From positions 1 through 64,000 of the forward strand of contig JAFSRP010000026.1 of assembly GCA_017446045.1 (NCBI GenBank): 64,000 nucleotides of DNA, read 5' to 3'. The stretch comes from Lachnospiraceae bacterium. GTDB taxonomy: Bacteria; Bacillota; Clostridia; Lachnospirales; Lachnospiraceae. Each line of letters starts with the position of its first letter. The first letter of the stretch is position 1. The notes under the pieces were generated by a model. The model searched no databases. It was not told the DNA's origin and worked only from the letters and a program-made list of their open reading frames with translations. The position numbers were made by a program, and so were the translations under genes. Shown here piece after piece: positions 2,501 through 62,471 of the stretch.

Positions 2501-3856
2501 TCACCCGGCAGACACCTGTTCCCGGCTCAGCCTGCGATAGATCACCACAAAGCCGATACACTGCAGCACAGCCGTGACGAAGAAGGAGACGGGATAGACC
2601 GCGAACAGCACGTCGAAGGTCGGAAATGCCGCGAAGACCGTCCGGATATAGATCACCCGCGCGAGGCAGACGCCGAGGAGCGCATTGACCATAGCTATAA
2701 AGGAATATCCGAAGCCCTTGATGCCGCCGGAAAAGGCATCCTGGATCCCGCTCAGGAAATACAGGGAATTGATGATCCAGAGCTTGCGTACGGCATAGGC
2801 GAGCACCTCCGGGTCTTTGGTGTATATGCGGAAGATCTGCGGACCGGCAGCTATGGACGCATAACCGATCACCAGACCGAACAGGACCGCCAAAGTCACG
2901 CTGGCTGTCATGATCTTCCGGATTCGCGGAAGGTTCCCTGCGCCGTAGTTCTGCCCGACAAAACTGATGTTGGCATACTGGAAGGCGTTCATCGCGAGAT
3001 AAGTGACATTTTCAACATTAGAAGCCGCTGTGGCTGCCGCCATCACTGAAGATCCGAAACTGTTGATCGATGACTGGATCGTCAGGTTTGCGATGGAAAA
3101 CATGATATTCTGCAGCCCTGCCGGAATCCCGACCTTCAGGATCCTCAACAGGGTCGCACCATGCATGCGAAGATCACGCGCCGTCATTCTGTATTCCGGA
3201 TCGGTGCTGTTCAGGCGCCGCAGTGTCAGGATCGCGGATATCGCCTGGGAGATCACGGTCGCCAGTCCGACACCGAAGGTATCCATGCCGAAAGCTACCA
3301 CAAAGATCACGTTCAGGATCAGATTTACGATGCCCGACATCGTCAGGTAATACATGGGACGTTTGGTGTCTCCGAAAGCGCGCAGCTGCGCGGTCGAAAA
3401 GTTGTAGAGCATCATGACCGGCAGTCCGCAGAAATACACCCGGAGATATATTTCCGATTTATCGATCACGTCCGCGGGAGATCCAAGGAGCTCGAGCAGG
3501 GGCCGCGCGATCGCCTGGCCGATCATTAAGAGCAGGCATCCTCCCAGAAGACTGAGTGTCACAGCCGTACGGATCGAATTACGTACCGCATCATGATCGC
3601 CCTCTCCGATGCACTGTGCTGTCACTACATTGGCACCTACGGAAATGCCGACAAAAAGATTGGTCATCAGGAAAATGATGTTGGTCGTGGAGCCGACCGC
3701 CGCCAATGACTCCTTTCCGACAAAGCGCCCGACCACGACCATATCCGCGGCATTGAACATGAGCTGCAGGATATTGGTCAGCATCAGCGGGATCGTAAAC
3801 GCCAGGAGCCCCGTCCATATATTGCCCTGCAGCATATCGATCTTGTCTTTGCGCAT
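2501..3856 (-). CDS. MATE family multidrug efflux transporter
   Basis: A 451-residue inner-membrane antiporter of the MATE family, which expels cationic drugs in exchange for Na+ or H+. The N-terminal LQGNIWTGLLAFTIPLMLTN, the repeated glycine-rich transmembrane helices and two similar six-helix halves (GVGLATVISQ; FVGQNYGAGN) support this. The start MRKDKIDMLQG at 3856 is chosen since family members begin here; in-frame ATGs at 3880 and 3904 would add basic residues and lack a better Shine-Dalgarno. It is divergent from the patatin gene. Substrate unknown. Confidence 0.9.
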   Translation of the reverse strand: MRKDKIDMLQGNIWTGLLAFTIPLMLTNILQLMFNAADMVVVGRFVGKESLAAVGSTTNIIFLMTNLFVGISVGANVVTAQCIGEGDHDAVRNSIRTAVTLSLLGGCLLLMIGQAIARPLLELLGSPADVIDKSEIYLRVYFCGLPVMMLYNFSTAQLRAFGDTKRPMYYLTMSGIVNLILNVIFVVAFGMDTFGVGLATVISQAISAILTLRRLNSTDPEYRMTARDLRMHGATLLRILKVGIPAGLQNIMFSIANLTIQSSINSFGSSVMAAATAASNVENVTYLAMNAFQYANISFVGQNYGAGNLPRIRKIMTASVTLAVLFGLVIGYASIAAGPQIFRIYTKDPEVLAYAVRKLWIINSLYFLSGIQDAFSGGIKGFGYSFIAMVNALLGVCLARVIYIRTVFAAFPTFDVLFAVYPVSFFVTAVLQCIGFVVIYRRLSREQVSAG

Positions 3857-5569: not shown

Positions 5570-6337
5570 ATGGATATGAACAAGATCGACACCTTGACAA
5601 GCTGGATCGAAGAATGCAGCAGGATCGTGTTTTTCGGCGGCGCCGGCGTTTCCACGGAGAGCGGCGTCCCGGATTTCCGCAGCAAGGACGGCCTTTACAA
5701 CCAGAAAGACATCCGTTTTGACATGTATTCGCCGGAGTACCTCCTGAGCCATTCCTGCCTGATGGACCATCCCGATGTGTTCTTTGAGTTCTACAAACAG
5801 AAAATGGACGCACGGCATGTAAAGCCGAACGACGCCCACATTTTCCTCGCGAAGCTCGAAGAGCTCGGTAAACTGACCGCGGTGGTGACCCAGAACATCG
5901 ACTATCTGCATCAGCGTGCCGGGAGCCACAGGGTCTATGAGATCCACGGCACCACATATACCAACTACTGCATGCGCTGCGGCAAAAAGTACGGCCCGGA
6001 CTATCTCTATGAAACAAAAGAACGAATCCCTCACTGCGAATGCGGCGGTGTGATCCGTCCGGACGTCACGCTGTATGAGGAAGCCCTGCCGGATGACGCG
6101 GTCCGTATGTCCATCCGGGCGATCCAGGACGCCGACATGATGATCATCGGCGGCACCTCCCTCAGGGTCTACCCTGCCAACAGCTATATCCACTATTTCC
6201 ACGGAAAGCACATGGTCGTCATCAACCGCGAGTCTCTCGATCTGCGCCTCGATCCGGAGCATGACCTTGAGATCAATGACCCGATCGGCCAGGTCTTCCG
6301 CGAAGTGGCAGAGCGCATGGGCGTCGAGCTCCGCTGA
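5570..6337 (+). CDS. NAD-dependent protein deacylase, sirtuin (SIR2)
   Basis: A 255-residue sirtuin that removes acyl groups from lysines using NAD+. Visible motifs: GGAGVSTESGVPDFRS (NAD loop, about 22), TQNIDYLHQRAG (about 107, catalytic His in the following EIHGT), and a zinc ribbon with two Cys pairs (YCMRC ... HCEC). Length is normal for bacterial class III/U sirtuins. AGGAGA precedes the ATG. It is the last gene of the patatin-LysE-sirtuin run. Confidence 0.95.
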   Translation: MDMNKIDTLTSWIEECSRIVFFGGAGVSTESGVPDFRSKDGLYNQKDIRFDMYSPEYLLSHSCLMDHPDVFFEFYKQKMDARHVKPNDAHIFLAKLEELGKLTAVVTQNIDYLHQRAGSHRVYEIHGTTYTNYCMRCGKKYGPDYLYETKERIPHCECGGVIRPDVTLYEEALPDDAVRMSIRAIQDADMMIIGGTSLRVYPANSYIHYFHGKHMVVINRESLDLRLDPEHDLEINDPIGQVFREVAERMGVELR

Positions 6338-26539: not shown

Positions 26540-26646
26540 AAAAATGCACCGAGGCGATCTGTGGCACATAGAAGTGTCTGCTTAGTGCTGCTGTGTTCCC
26601 ACCCTGACACGGTTCGCAGATTCCTATCGCACAGGACCCCGGCGCG
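26540..26646 (-). ncRNA. ffs: Bacterial small signal recognition particle RNA (4.5S)
   Basis: Read on the minus strand, about 107 nt. The ends pair (GCGCCGGGG with CCTCGGTGC, G-U allowed) and the apex carries the conserved GAACCGTGTCAGG ... AGCAGCACTAAG that forms the Ffh-binding domain IV. A T run at 26539-26544 follows the closing stem. It binds Ffh to target membrane proteins. The canonical GGAAG tetraloop side reads GGGAACACAGC here, slightly unusual. Confidence 0.88.
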
Positions 26647-29322: not shown

Positions 29323-29504
29323 AGCGTAATAAGCTCCTGACAAATGGACTTGCGTGCGCAGGCTTGCCTGCCGGCACTCATGGACTTTTGGAAGGGCACC
29401 CGGCATGAGGAAAAAAGCTGCGCGACGCCTTGGCGAGCGAAGCGGTTTCCGAATGGCGGGGACGGAAGGCGGGAGCGCGCAGCGCGGAGCCATCCGTCGG
29501 CTTT

Positions 29505-30419
29505 TTACTCCTTCTGTTCCTCAGTATGCAGCCCCAGCTGCCAGAACGCCACCGCGCTCGCGGCGGCAACATTGAGCGAATCCACCCCGTGGTACATCGG
29601 GATCCTGATCGTATAGTCCGAAGCCGCAATGGTCTCCGGCTTAAGTCCCGGTCCTTCACTGCCAAGGACGACCGCCAGCCTTTCCTCGGCATTCAGCTGC
29701 GGGTCCCGGATACTGACGGTATCATCCGTAAGGGCAAATGCCGCCAGTTTAAAACCCAGTCCCTTCAGCTGCCCGATCCAGTCTTCCCCGAGCTTTGTCC
29801 AGGGGATCTGGAACACGGTCCCCATGCTGACGCGCGCGGACCGTTTATATAAAGGGTCCGTACATCCCGGCGCGAGCAGCACCGCTTCCATCCCGAGAGC
29901 GGCTGCCGAACGGAAGATCGCACCCAGGTTGGTCGGATTCATCACCGCCTCCAGTACCGCGACCCTTCGCATTCCAACGCAGCATCCATCCTTGGAAGAA
30001 ACCTTATGCCCCGGTCTCCCGGCGCAAAGTTCTTCTACGGAAGGAAGCGCCGGCCGCCGCATCAGGCAAAGGACGCCCCTGGCAAGGTGATATCCGGTCA
30101 GCTGCTCCAGCAGTTCGGGCGCCGCGGTATAGACCGGTACCTTACAGCGCGCGATCAGTCCCGCAGCTCCGCCCGTCACCTGCTTATGCTCCACCAGCAG
30201 TGAGACCGGCTCACAGCCTCCGTCCAGTGCCCGCTCCACGACCAGGGCGCTTTCCGCCACAAAAAGGCCGCCGTGTGGCTCAAAGTAATGACGCAGTTCA
30301 TTTTCCGAAAGGCGCGCATACGGCTCCAGCACCGGATCAGACAGGTCGGTGACCTCGGTCAGTCTGCTGCCGTGGTCATTTATCATTCTGTTTATATTGT
30401 CATTTACAGTGAGATCCAT
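29505..30419 (-). CDS. TrmH/SpoU family RNA 2'-O-methyltransferase
   Basis: A 304-residue SPOUT (trefoil-knot) methyltransferase of rRNA or tRNA. Motif 1 is NPTNLGAIFRSAAALG, motif 2 VVLGSEGPGL and motif 3 IPMYHGVDSLNVAAA. The N-terminal substrate-binding domain contains HYFEPHGGLFVAESALVVERAL. The target nucleotide cannot be deduced. The gene is divergent from the lipoprotein gene at 30656; the exact start is uncertain because no strong ribosome site precedes either early ATG. Confidence 0.92.
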   Translation of the reverse strand: MDLTVNDNINRMINDHGSRLTEVTDLSDPVLEPYARLSENELRHYFEPHGGLFVAESALVVERALDGGCEPVSLLVEHKQVTGGAAGLIARCKVPVYTAAPELLEQLTGYHLARGVLCLMRRPALPSVEELCAGRPGHKVSSKDGCCVGMRRVAVLEAVMNPTNLGAIFRSAAALGMEAVLLAPGCTDPLYKRSARVSMGTVFQIPWTKLGEDWIGQLKGLGFKLAAFALTDDTVSIRDPQLNAEERLAVVLGSEGPGLKPETIAASDYTIRIPMYHGVDSLNVAAASAVAFWQLGLHTEEQKE

Positions 30420-32900: not shown

Positions 32901-34712
32901 ATGAAACGAATACTCCTTACAGCCTTTGTACTGCTTCTCGGTGCCCTGTTCCTGTCTGCCTGCCAGCCCGGCACGGATCCCGGCCCTGCCGGGACGGACG
33001 GACCAGGTCCTGCCGGCACCGGCGGCGCGGCACCCGCCAAAGGCAATTCCCCGATCGGCACCTGGTACGAACAGGAAGAAAACGGCGGTGTGCTTGAAGT
33101 GACCAAAAACAAGATCCGGTACACCCCCGCAAGCGGCACCTACGTTGACGAAGCGCCGCTGAAGATCGTCAAGACCCTCGACGGATGCAAGCTGGAGACC
33201 AACGAGGAGGATTACTTCTGGTATGTGGATATCGTCTATGATCAGAAAGAAGATATGATCGAGGCGCACACGATGCCGGTCCTGGACGGCGACGGGGGCT
33301 ACAAGCTCCGCACCTTCCGCAGGGCACCCTACGAGGCTCCGCCGCCACCGGTCTACGATCCGCCGACAGACAATTCCGACCCTGACGCGCCAAAGGATTT
33401 CGACGATATGACGGTCCGGTCCATGCACGTTACCTTCTATGACAGAGGGACCTACCACGATCCTTCCTCCAACATGGCTTCCTGCCCGCCGTACCCCGAC
33501 GTGTACAGTTATGACCTTGAGGTACAGGAGGATGGTACCGCGCTCGTCTCGTCGTCCTTCTGCCATGAGCTCACGCTGCCCGCGGAATCGATGGCGGAGC
33601 TGCAGGAACTGGTCAGCAATGCGGACCTCGGCAGCATCAACGGCCTTGACATCCATACGGAAGGAATGCCCTTCGGTACAGAAGATTATACACTTGAGCT
33701 GGAACTGGCTTCGGGCGAGACCATCCGCTCTTCCGCAAACGGACCGGATGTCCCGGCTGCATGGATGGAATTCCAGCGTCCGATGCATTATCTCCTGTAC
33801 TTTGCCTTTGTCAACGCGGGCTATGAGTACAGCGGCTACGGCTTCCATCCGACCGCGCCCATGAAGCGTCTCGGGACCGGCTCGGCGCCGGCACGCGTTT
33901 CCTGGAGAAAGATGCTGGAGCAGGCTGACTATGGCTACGGCTGGCTGGAGTTTGAAGATGAGGACGAGAACGGAGGCAGCGGTGATGACAGCAACGCGGA
34001 AGAACTTAACGTAAGCTACGATTCTGTCCGCATCGAGCCCGACTGGCCAAAGGCTTATGACTATGATCTTCATACCCAATATCTGGTCTTTGAAGATGTC
34101 GAGCCGGAGTACCCCGAACTTATGAAGACCCTGCAGCAGCTGAATGCGGAATACCGCGCTGCTTCGGAGCGTTCCTTACAGGAAGACTATGAGATGATGG
34201 AAGCCGTTCCGGCCAAGGTCTGGAAAAACGCAGACCGCCGCTACTGCTACTCCTTCTTTACCGTCGCGCACGGGACCGATCACGGGCTCTTCTATTCAGT
34301 CCTGGTCTCCGAAGGCCATGCCAATTCCATGGGCGTCGGCAAATACGGCTACGGACACTACCCGAACATTCAATACAACATCAGCAAAGAGACCGGGCAG
34401 ATCATTTCCGTCGCGGACCTTTTCAAAGATAAGGAAACAGCGCTGAAACTCATCACTGACAGCCTGGTCAACAGCTGGGGCACCCACAATGAAGAGGGCA
34501 AGTTCATCCACTCCGATGAATTCCCCGCAAAGCTTGCGGAATTTATCGACAAGACCGGACGGGACGGCATCAACTGGAACGCGTATTACAGCTATCTGGA
34601 GCTGTATTTCCCGACTTCCTTCTTCACAATGTCCGATACAAGCGTCCGCCACGTCCTGTATTACGAGGATCTGCAGGATGTCCTGAATGACGACTGGTCG
34701 AGAGTCTGGTAA
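32901..34712 (+). CDS. Lipoprotein with C-terminal DUF3298 (RsiV-like) domain
   Basis: A 603-residue lipoprotein; signal MKRILLTAFVLLLGALFLSAC. After a Gly/Pro linker there is a Trp/Tyr-rich domain (GTWYEQEENGGVLEV), a middle domain, and from about 380 a DUF4163/DUF3298-like region (YDYDLHTQYLVFED...YPELMKTLQQLN, later ISKETGQIISVADLFKD). That region in RsiV is the extracellular lysozyme-binding part of an anti-sigma factor, but no sigma-binding N terminus exists here. GGAGG precedes the ATG. Probably co-transcribed with the previous lipoprotein. Confidence 0.75.
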   Translation: MKRILLTAFVLLLGALFLSACQPGTDPGPAGTDGPGPAGTGGAAPAKGNSPIGTWYEQEENGGVLEVTKNKIRYTPASGTYVDEAPLKIVKTLDGCKLETNEEDYFWYVDIVYDQKEDMIEAHTMPVLDGDGGYKLRTFRRAPYEAPPPPVYDPPTDNSDPDAPKDFDDMTVRSMHVTFYDRGTYHDPSSNMASCPPYPDVYSYDLEVQEDGTALVSSSFCHELTLPAESMAELQELVSNADLGSINGLDIHTEGMPFGTEDYTLELELASGETIRSSANGPDVPAAWMEFQRPMHYLLYFAFVNAGYEYSGYGFHPTAPMKRLGTGSAPARVSWRKMLEQADYGYGWLEFEDEDENGGSGDDSNAEELNVSYDSVRIEPDWPKAYDYDLHTQYLVFEDVEPEYPELMKTLQQLNAEYRAASERSLQEDYEMMEAVPAKVWKNADRRYCYSFFTVAHGTDHGLFYSVLVSEGHANSMGVGKYGYGHYPNIQYNISKETGQIISVADLFKDKETALKLITDSLVNSWGTHNEEGKFIHSDEFPAKLAEFIDKTGRDGINWNAYYSYLELYFPTSFFTMSDTSVRHVLYYEDLQDVLNDDWSRVW

Positions 34713-34763
34713 GCACTTTCCGGCTGACGAAGCGGCAAGCACTTATTATGTTAAAAGCCCGAA

Positions 34764-34944
34764 ATTGCTACATTTTTCATGAAATTCGCAAATAATGTAG
34801 CAAAAATAGAGGATTTTCAAAGACCTGTCCGCATACCGTGCTACGCTTCCGGCAAAAAATAGCTTTTCTGTAGCAAATTGTTAACATAAGTCAAAAATAA
34901 TGCTACGTTTTTGCGCGCTTTGCGCGAAAACGTAGCATTTTCTT
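34764..34944. repeat. Helically phased TGCTAC/GTAGCA array, copy A
   Basis: TGCTAC at 34766, 34839 and 34901 and its complement GTAGCA at 34797, 34870 and 34932. Each pair is TGCTAC-N25-GTAGCA. A GTTAACATAAGTC motif (34880-34892) precedes the third pair, which also forms a long hairpin with GCGC at its tip. It fills the 282-bp gap between two convergent genes. A homologous copy is at 62175-62352. Confidence 0.8.
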
Positions 34945-34994
34945 CATTTTAACCCTTAAGAGCTATTATTTCGTCATGAACGCCGACGAAAGCT

Positions 34995-60987: not shown

Positions 60988-61941
60988 TCAGCTCACGACA
61001 TTGACCGGATTGCCTTCAAAGAACCCCCGGATGTCATCCGCCACAACGCCCACCAGGCGCTGCCGGGTCTCGAAGCCCTTCCAGCCCATGTGCGGCGTCA
61101 GGATCACGTTGCCCATGGTATAGAGCGGGTTATCCTCCGCCGGCGGTTCCGTCTCCTGTACATCAAGTCCCGCGCCGGCGATCCGCTTCTCTTTGAGCGC
61201 GCAGATCAGGGCCGGTTCATCGATCAGGGCACCTCTGGACGTGTTGATGAGGAACGCCGTCGGCTTCATCATCGCAAGCGTTTCTTCATTGATCAGATGA
61301 CGCGTCTTGTCATTCAGCGGACAATGCAGGGAAATATAATCACTTTCCCTGAGCAGCGTTTCCAATGACACAAAGCTCACGCCATCCACATCCTCCCGCG
61401 GCGTCCGGGTATGGCAAAGCACCTTCATATCCATCGCCTGTGCCACTTTGATGACCTGACGGCCGATATTTCCGTATCCTATGACGCCGATCGTCTTGCC
61501 GTTCAGCTCTACGTGCGGCACCTGGAGATATTTCGTAAAATTGCTCCTGTCGCCCTTTGCAAGCATCCCGATCTGTGTCTGCATCGCGGAGGAAAGGTTC
61601 AGCATCAGCATGACTGCCGTGTGCGCCACTCTGTGGGAGCTGTATGCAGGAACATTGCAGACGGTGATGCCTCTTTCCCTGGCAGCGTCGATCGCAATGT
61701 TATTATATCCCGTACCTGCTTCGCAGATCAGTTTTACACTTGCCGGAAAGCGGGCGATCATCTCCGCCGGAACCGGAAGCTCCTTTGTCACGACAGCTGC
61801 AGCGCCTTCTATGCGCCCGAGGATCTGATCCGGCGCACTGTCTTCATATACGACCGTATCCGGTGAGAGGACACTGAAATCCAGCAATCCGTCATAGTTC
61901 ATCTTCCCGGCATTCAGTACAACAACTTTCTGATTCCCCAT
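60988..61941 (-). CDS. D-isomer specific 2-hydroxyacid dehydrogenase
   Basis: A 317-residue NAD-dependent oxidoreductase. The Rossmann motif is GVIGYGNIGRQV (about 152), with catalytic Arg in NTSRGALID, Glu in LDVQETEP and His in TPHMGW, so the active site is complete. N-terminal EAGTGYNNIAIDAA is the usual substrate-domain signature. Substrate (lactate, glycerate, hydroxypyruvate or others) unknown. Confidence 0.92.
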   Translation of the reverse strand: MGNQKVVVLNAGKMNYDGLLDFSVLSPDTVVYEDSAPDQILGRIEGAAAVVTKELPVPAEMIARFPASVKLICEAGTGYNNIAIDAARERGITVCNVPAYSSHRVAHTAVMLMLNLSSAMQTQIGMLAKGDRSNFTKYLQVPHVELNGKTIGVIGYGNIGRQVIKVAQAMDMKVLCHTRTPREDVDGVSFVSLETLLRESDYISLHCPLNDKTRHLINEETLAMMKPTAFLINTSRGALIDEPALICALKEKRIAGAGLDVQETEPPAEDNPLYTMGNVILTPHMGWKGFETRQRLVGVVADDIRGFFEGNPVNVVS

Positions 61942-62174
61942 TTTTTCCTCCGTTCTCTTACTGAAAAACGATACCGGTCACGATCAGCACGACCTTCTTC
62001 CATCTGCTCTGTTTTCCTGATCCATAGTATATCTGATCCTTGCATGGATCAGCCTAAGCACAGATGTCTACAAAGATAAATTATATCGCGGATCCGTGCC
62101 CATCGCAACTGAACAGGTCCCGGGCAAGGCTCTTTTTCACGTCCGCTTCAGAACTCTGAGGTTCAAATGCCTAA

Positions 62175-62352
62175 ATTGCTACGTTTTTCCTGAAAATCAG
62201 CTGAAATGTAGCAAAAACAGACCCTTCAAAAGCTTTTTGCTTACTTCGATGCTACGTTTTTCTTTAAAATATACTTCTTTGTAGCAAAAGGTTTACATAT
62301 GTCGAAAATAATGCTACGTTTTTACGCTTTTGGGACGAAAACGTAGCATTTT
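62175..62352. repeat. Helically phased TGCTAC/GTAGCA array, copy B
   Basis: TGCTAC at 62177, 62250 and 62312; GTAGCA at 62208, 62281 and 62343. Every spacing equals that of copy A at 34764-34944, though the intervening bases differ. The motif GTTTACATATGTC is at 62291-62303. It lies in the 574-bp region between divergent genes (61942-62515), in which no other gene is seen. Confidence 0.8.
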
Positions 62353-62471
62353 CGTTATTTCCCATTTTATAGCATTTGCAGCATTGATCTACTGCGTTAT
62401 AGCTTATCAGATCCCCGGTTCGCCCCGGCACTGAAAGCCGTTGGCACTACATAGATTTTGTGATAGCATGT

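Follow-up and report, generated by a model that had tools for sequence, protein, structure and literature searches.

Two word arrays in the window and three elsewhere in the genome

The window, the whole stretch of 64,000 nucleotides analysed here, lies in contig C62 of the source genome (G000), whose assembly is 78.88% complete and has 63 contigs totalling 2,264,095 bases. Between two divergent ORFs (starts at 61941 on the minus and 62516 on the plus strand) lies a repeat, copy B, which blastn with 600-bp flanks delimited at 62158-62360 (+) as the part shared with copies A and C. Six alternating words, TGCTAC and its inverse GTAGCA (w1 to w6), together span 62177-62348 and form three units, to which no strand is assigned and in which the word starts lie 31 bp apart: unit 1 at 62177-62213 (TGCTAC at 62177, GTAGCA at 62208), unit 2 at 62250-62286 (62250 and 62281) and unit 3 at 62312-62348 (62312 and 62343). 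Units 2 and 3 are joined by a core linker, GGTTTACATATGTCGAAAATAA (62290-62311, +), recognized by the invariance of TTNACATANNTCNAANA between w4 and w5 in all five copies of the genome (5/5) and by a blastn block (705-742 in the copies with their 600-bp flanks) that is shared with copies D and E. The 23-nt arms of copy B, 62165-62187 and 62338-62360, are 83% complementary.

Copy A occupies 34750-34949 (+), as shared with B in blastn, between convergent ORFs (ends at 34712, +, and 34995, -). Its six words span 34766-34937, with unit 1 at 34766-34802 (word starts 34766 and 34797), unit 2 at 34839-34875 (34839 and 34870) and unit 3 at 34901-34937 (34901 and 34932), again without strand; the third unit is also a terminator-like hairpin with a tail. 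The core linker between units 2 and 3, GTTAACATAAGTCAAAAATAA at 34880-34900 (+), was placed from the copy alignment and blastn. The word starts give intervals of 31, 42, 31, 31 and 31 bp in each copy, so the first-pass annotation was right that A and B share all five, and the ORF ends and starts agree with its placement of A between convergent genes and of B in a divergent region. With up to two mismatches allowed, TGCTACGTTTTT matches the window at 10 places, which exceeds chance: the mean is 2.63, and none of 100 shuffles gave as many.

Three further copies were found in the same genome: C on contig C8, by blastn with B, and D (contig C17) and E (contig C54), both by a filler-blind search for TGCTAC, 25 bp and GTAGCA. 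A pattern of four words (24 bases in all) at fixed gaps, with as many as three mismatches allowed, matched exactly five loci in this genome, all with 0 mismatches, and a reversed control pattern matched none. A sequence-only model of the five copies revealed no sixth clear copy there; besides matches to these loci on the opposite strand, its one weak match is on contig C52 (E 0.2). This brings the total to five arrays with 15 units in a 79%-complete assembly. Word orientation alternates strictly in all five, the interval order 31, 42, 31, 31 is kept in 5/5 copies, and the last interval measures 31 in A and B and 32 in the other three.

All five copies lie between ORFs. The context is convergent for A, C (aldo-keto reductase and Hsp20) and E (a 318-aa ORF and a HIGH nucleotidyl transferase), divergent for B and co-directional for D, and neither a promoter nor a terminator position is therefore common to the copies. 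For A and B, it had already been argued that no terminator or simple promoter role suits the two copies alike, and indeed a terminator-like match lies inside the array only in A (34899-34939); the match in the intergenic region of B (61976-61994) is outside the array. TGCTAC was also considered as an extended -10 element, since TTNACA precedes w5 by 17 bp; this was rejected, as no other word has a fitting upstream hexamer and transcription in A and C would be antisense. D and E begin with a sequence resembling a T-arm (GGTTCGATGCC), a reading that was dropped because copy A does not have it. No genes for replication or partition were noticed in the ORFs that adjoin the copies. The 318-aa left neighbour of E (L032, 5964-6920) has no Pfam match and shows C-terminal similarity to the PADLOC candidate PDC-S68 (E 3.5e-25).

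Conservation of words and spacing within and between species

In the five-copy alignment, 36/36 word columns are invariant, versus 35/138 filler columns (hypergeometric p 9e-18). Copies A and B, which blastn aligned at 76% over 205 bp (B and C: 78% over 204 bp), are 100% identical in the words (36 columns) and 60% identical in the filler (136 columns), with no gap column in the core. Filler identity is 57% for A/C, 69% for B/C and 88% for D/E, and only 39-43% between the subfamilies A/B/C and D/E, the words of which are identical. Copies A, B and C were first found by sequence reading and blastn, with no exact word required. The word match of D and E at w1-w4 is partly selected, because both were found by those words; w5 and w6 lie outside the search pattern, are intact, and are the sole unselected word test there. 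A purine directly follows TGCTAC in 30/30 words of A-E.

The TGCTAC array (up to three mismatches) is absent from 24 other genomes of the genus and from 396 other sampled genomes of the family. Arrays with other words were found in relatives. A genus member, G004, was reached by a weak model match (15 bits, E 0.03) through the core form GTTTACATAATTC; the word at that locus is TACAGTC/GACTGTA. This genome has three full arrays and a partial one on contig C31, the full arrays having intervals of 31,18,31,52,31,21,32,18,32 (C6), 32,18,31,53,31,21,31,18,32 (C117) and 31,18,31,53,31,21,32,18 (C123, where one word has a mismatch), kept to within 1 bp across the three. One word of the C123 array overlaps the longest-start version of an ORF. 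The exact pair pattern of G004 occurs in 1/25 genus genomes, namely G004 itself. At the end of contig C117, a short direct repeat, CACAGCCCGTCCTGACTGTCCGGGGTGAACCAGATTA, is seen just beyond the array (L099, 1880-1958).

Another genus member, G008, carries arrays of TGTAAGCC on contig C46 and, as a near-duplicate, at C14:24980, and an array of TGTGAGCC at C14:5656-5916, with pair spacings of 31-33 bp and some degenerate words. A Lachnospiraceae MAG from horse faeces (L007, JAKSPC010000001.1), reached through a contig search with a neighbouring GH25 protein, has ATACATATAA/TTATATGTAT pairs 32 bp apart between convergent ORFs. In another genus, G052 has TACGGTTC/GAACCGTA at 31,22,31,22,31,22,31,22,31; G050, also of another genus, is less alike, with AGTACGT/ACGTACT at 35,18 in tandem. 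L242 17837-18090 and L240 3200-3560, from genomes of other genera, are two tandem arrays whose period is 53 bp and whose words are TACGGTTC and AGTACGT. The word starts of the inverted pairs are thus 31-33 bp apart in G000, G004, G008, L007 and G052. Arrays have about 3-6 units, whose number and between-unit spacing vary by species, and the within-unit spacing is constant. Strict alternation is also seen in G004 C117 and G052, and it is partly degenerate in G008 and G004 C31.

Some of the arrays in three genus members contain a recurring core, GTTTACATAA. The form GTTTACATAATTC stands in D and E and is changed in A, B and C; TTTACATAA is found in 2/3 full G004 arrays and GGTTTACATAAT in the G008 array at C14:5656. 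The core is absent from the other C14 array of G008 and from G052, and no exact core was found in the L007 sequence.

To survey arrays independently of the word, we scanned 99 stretches (1,724,719 bases) from 12 genus relatives, some of them picked for RAYT or model matches, and found arrays of this kind only in G008. A further 20 stretches, drawn from 20 genera other than this one (together 306,200 bases; 15 reach 13 kb or more), included two with arrays, those of G052 and G050. By these counts the array class is probably not rare in Lachnospiraceae. The strict detector, which calls an array where two or more 7-mer pairs with a separation of 28-36 bp fall within 320 bp, had 0 matches in 1,362,101 Markov-resampled bases. 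It flagged only two (L030, L031) of the four stretches with G000 copies (L030-L033) and so misses about half; its misses therefore mean little. Looser spacing gave many single matches, which were not counted. Two candidates were judged to be of another kind: a GC-rich GGGCTGC/GCAGCCC repeat with 12/36 spacing and three units (L227, 3043-3160, among the 20 stretches of other genera) and a CATCATC repeat (L257). Weak model matches in L065-L067 (E 4e-4 to 0.01) showed no array by eye or by repeat search. Copy C had no match in plasmid and phage collections, nor the L007 array in plasmids. One search of viral contigs gave 0 matches and another a single one, by eye a stretch of collagen-type repeats; three viral-contig matches to the L007 word pair were found, and the array detector fired in none of them. 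A literature search by title, in which subscription papers were thinly covered, found none describing such arrays.

The three full G004 arrays repeat with another word what was seen in G000: word identity is 93-99% and filler identity 38-49%, the word columns being defined from exact occurrences, which somewhat favours word identity. Paralogous units are not independent of one another. The arrays are conserved by selection on words and spacing, and those of G000 belong to a broader class in which each species has its particular word. Such selection had been called likely from A and B, the bases between their words being described as largely diverged. That view has held up in the alignment of all copies for word, spacing and filler, where five copies keep 36 word bases, filler identity runs from 88% down to 39%, and the words are better conserved than the filler. 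The species-to-species change of word, the A/T phasing and the shared core go beyond that first annotation.

An explanation by neutral repeats that gene conversion or recent duplication keeps similar, the words being under no selection, is disfavoured and very improbable. Recent copying would fit D and E, which are 91% identical over 284 bp, and the two near-identical arrays of G008; however, conversion would homogenize the filler too, and the subfamilies differ there while sharing every word.

The D/E pair also bears on whether the repeats are a MITE family, that is, DNA-transposon remnants with terminal inverted repeats, copied by a transposase encoded elsewhere, whose words would be subterminal binding sites with no host role. 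The similarity of D and E lies between unrelated flanks (no blastn match), and the arms of copy B give the repeat palindromic ends. The bacterial MITEs RUP, BOX and bcr1, named in the accessible part of PMC3733652, are alike in being intergenic, about 200 bp long, palindromic at the ends and without coding capacity. They differ in that the conserved part of the arrays is a set of internal words at fixed spacing, and in that the word changes between related species with the layout kept. No target-site duplication was recognized by eye at the ends of D and E, which are not sharply defined. In addition, words are intact in copies with a filler difference of 31-43%, and a fixed within-unit spacing combined with unit number (3, 4 or 5) and spacing that vary between species would be atypical of transposon ends. 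We consider a MITE origin unlikely.

A/T phasing and folding of the units

When units were aligned at their centres, the central base was A/T in 39/39. The A/T fraction at the centre and at 8-10.5 bp to either side, versus that at 3-6 bp, was 0.92/0.41 in G000, 0.96/0.49 in G004 and 0.77/0.24 in G008 and L007 combined, values reached in 0/5000 shuffles each, the offsets having been chosen after the profile was viewed. G052, which was found later and has near-identical units, agrees (0.91/0.42, 0/2000 shuffles). All intervals of G000 are near multiples of 10.4 bp; the between-unit intervals of 18 and 21 bp in G004 break the helical phase, so only the within-unit distance is general.

Pairing between symmetric inner positions is near chance, with 35/78 against 30.1 expected in G000, 36/85 against 33.5 in G004, 12/32 against 14.7 in G008 and 4/15 against 6.4 in L007. 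Outer pairing leans above shuffled values (38/75 vs 31.1 in G000, 32/65 vs 28.0 in G004, 11/15 vs 6.5 in L007). With the words fixed and the filler shuffled, unit folding gave mean z values of -2.1, -0.8, -1.5 and -2.1 (G000, G004, G008 and L007) with wide scatter. Some units lie far below the mean z in this test, and complete arrays have a better fold than shuffled sequences (z of -4.65 in B and -4.19 in D); both points count against recognition as a bent duplex and leave a hairpin role conceivable. RNAalifold found two-sided changes in 11/49 pairs, yet its covariation term was unfavourable (+1.56). No fold is common to all copies: the preferred fold has three local hairpins in A, B and C and is nested in D and E. 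We read this as recognition of the duplex, with bending, more than as recognition of a hairpin.

The same folding energies, together with the terminator score of unit 3 in copy A, would suit hairpins that act in transcripts, as terminators, attenuators or structured RNA. We regard this as improbable: the gene contexts in G000 are mixed, array B has no terminator match, and the preferred fold differs between the subfamilies. In Rfam 15, four matches in the window exceeded the gathering score, none of them at A or B. A Clostridiales-1 RNA was located at 29329-29505 (+) and a bacterial small SRP RNA at 26545-26643 (-), both above that score.

Relation to known repeats and a candidate DNA-bending system

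Plasmid iteron and centromere arrays are built of repeated protein-binding words in a fixed register that differ between relatives. They occupy one site per replicon, unlike the five dispersed loci on chromosomal contigs described here. REPINs consist of two inverted REPs around a variable spacer and form a dispersed family within a genome. The arrays resemble them in their dispersal and in the conserved inverted words that flank a variable middle; they differ in that their words are 6-8 bp long, where REPINs have long REP ends, and in having 3-6 units per array, a low copy number and no linked RAYT shown.

An alternative is that the arrays are non-autonomous repeats of the BIME or REP type: a REP-associated tyrosine transposase (RAYT) would excise the palindromic units in the form of single-stranded hairpins and move them, and a change of transposase would bring a change of word. 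The accessible part of PMC2817692 describes BIMEs as alternating, regularly spaced, extragenic and species-specific palindromes with several units per cluster, which matches the layout of the short extragenic arrays in each respect, and as binding proteins such as IHF and gyrase. Furthermore, G000 encodes a Y1_Tnp protein above the NCBIfam cut-off for REP-associated tyrosine transposases (REP_Tyr_transpos; 86 bits vs 80). The best evidence for this alternative comes from G008, where a similar protein of 251 aa (L180, 3007-3762) is encoded about 1.9 kb from the array at 5656-5916, on the contig that also carries the array at C14:24980. This proximity is, however, a selected observation, since the contig was fetched for its RAYT and four RAYT loci were examined (G000, G008, G009 and G013), and the array does not flank the gene.

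At the RAYT loci of G000 and G013, different sequences were found. The 3.3-kb locus around the G000 gene has no exact TGCTAC, and the gene is bracketed by its own inverted repeat of 32 nt, 81% complementary and of another sequence; on contig C11 (L179, 2572-3438), this repeat, of the GGGGACGGTTCTC type and unrelated to TGCTAC, encloses the RAYT-like gene at 2648-3403. The accessible part of PMC3733652 mentions RAYT genes that have long TIRs on their flanks in place of REPs. The G013 gene adjoins other hairpins, TTTTTGATT. These hairpins, with TGGCGTCAGGGGA flanks, are seen on contig C85 of G013 (L181, 1606-1670, 7192-7310 and 9281-9400) near the RAYT-like gene and form a separate REP-like family with shorter spacing. 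In G004, a 79%-complete genome with arrays, no long RAYT match was found, only a short IS200-type match.

The arrays also lack the unpaired GTAG tag of REP elements. In G000, GTAG occurs only inside the inverted word GTAGCA, and it is missing from the words of G004, G008, L007 and G052 (TACAGTC, TGTAAGCC, ATACATATAA and TACGGTTC). In the accessible part of PMC3733652, GTAG repeats are listed for Proteobacteria, Cyanobacteria, Chloroflexi and the PVC group, and Firmicutes are not named there. Unlike BIME and REP families, which usually exceed 100 copies, the arrays number five in the 79%-complete G000, do not flank the RAYT gene of the same genome, and have a fixed word spacing of 31-33 bp, A/T phasing and a recurring core. 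We treat mobilization by a RAYT as a less likely but serious alternative.

The observations comprise the words and their spacing, the invariance of the words where the filler has diverged, the A/T phasing, the dispersed positions, the different words of relatives and the recurring core. Proceeding from these, our preferred reading is that the dispersed intergenic arrays are double-stranded sites for a putative DNA-bending protein whose target word differs by species, to which we assign a probability of roughly one half. Each unit, an inverted pair of a 6-8 bp word with starts 31-33 bp apart, corresponds to about three helical turns. If the DNA is bent, the A/T-rich steps at mid-unit and about 9-10 bp to each side would have their minor groove facing inward. 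A protein dimer could grip both words and bend the DNA between them, and three to five neighbouring units of an array may join into one nucleoprotein body, with the core GTTTACATAA as a possible second contact in some arrays. The arrays would come to occupy further intergenic sites as they spread, and the protein and its word may change together, so that each species would have its own word. The cellular role might be in local chromosome structure or in the spread of the element itself. More tentatively, judging from the sequences compared here, the arrays could represent an undescribed, Lachnospiraceae-wide class of nucleoprotein arrays, in which the geometry is kept and all words of a genome change in concert through a co-evolving, dedicated DNA-bending protein.

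If this is right, the arrays would amount to a natural experiment: each species would have exchanged the recognition word of a DNA-protein complex throughout its genome and preserved the layout of that complex. The co-evolution of a DNA-binding protein with its dispersed sites would become directly testable. The arrays would also mark, in common gut bacteria, a system that organises the chromosome or is mobile. Should a RAYT prove to drive them, the range of BIME-like clusters would still grow to include Lachnospiraceae, where their fixed geometry is unusual.
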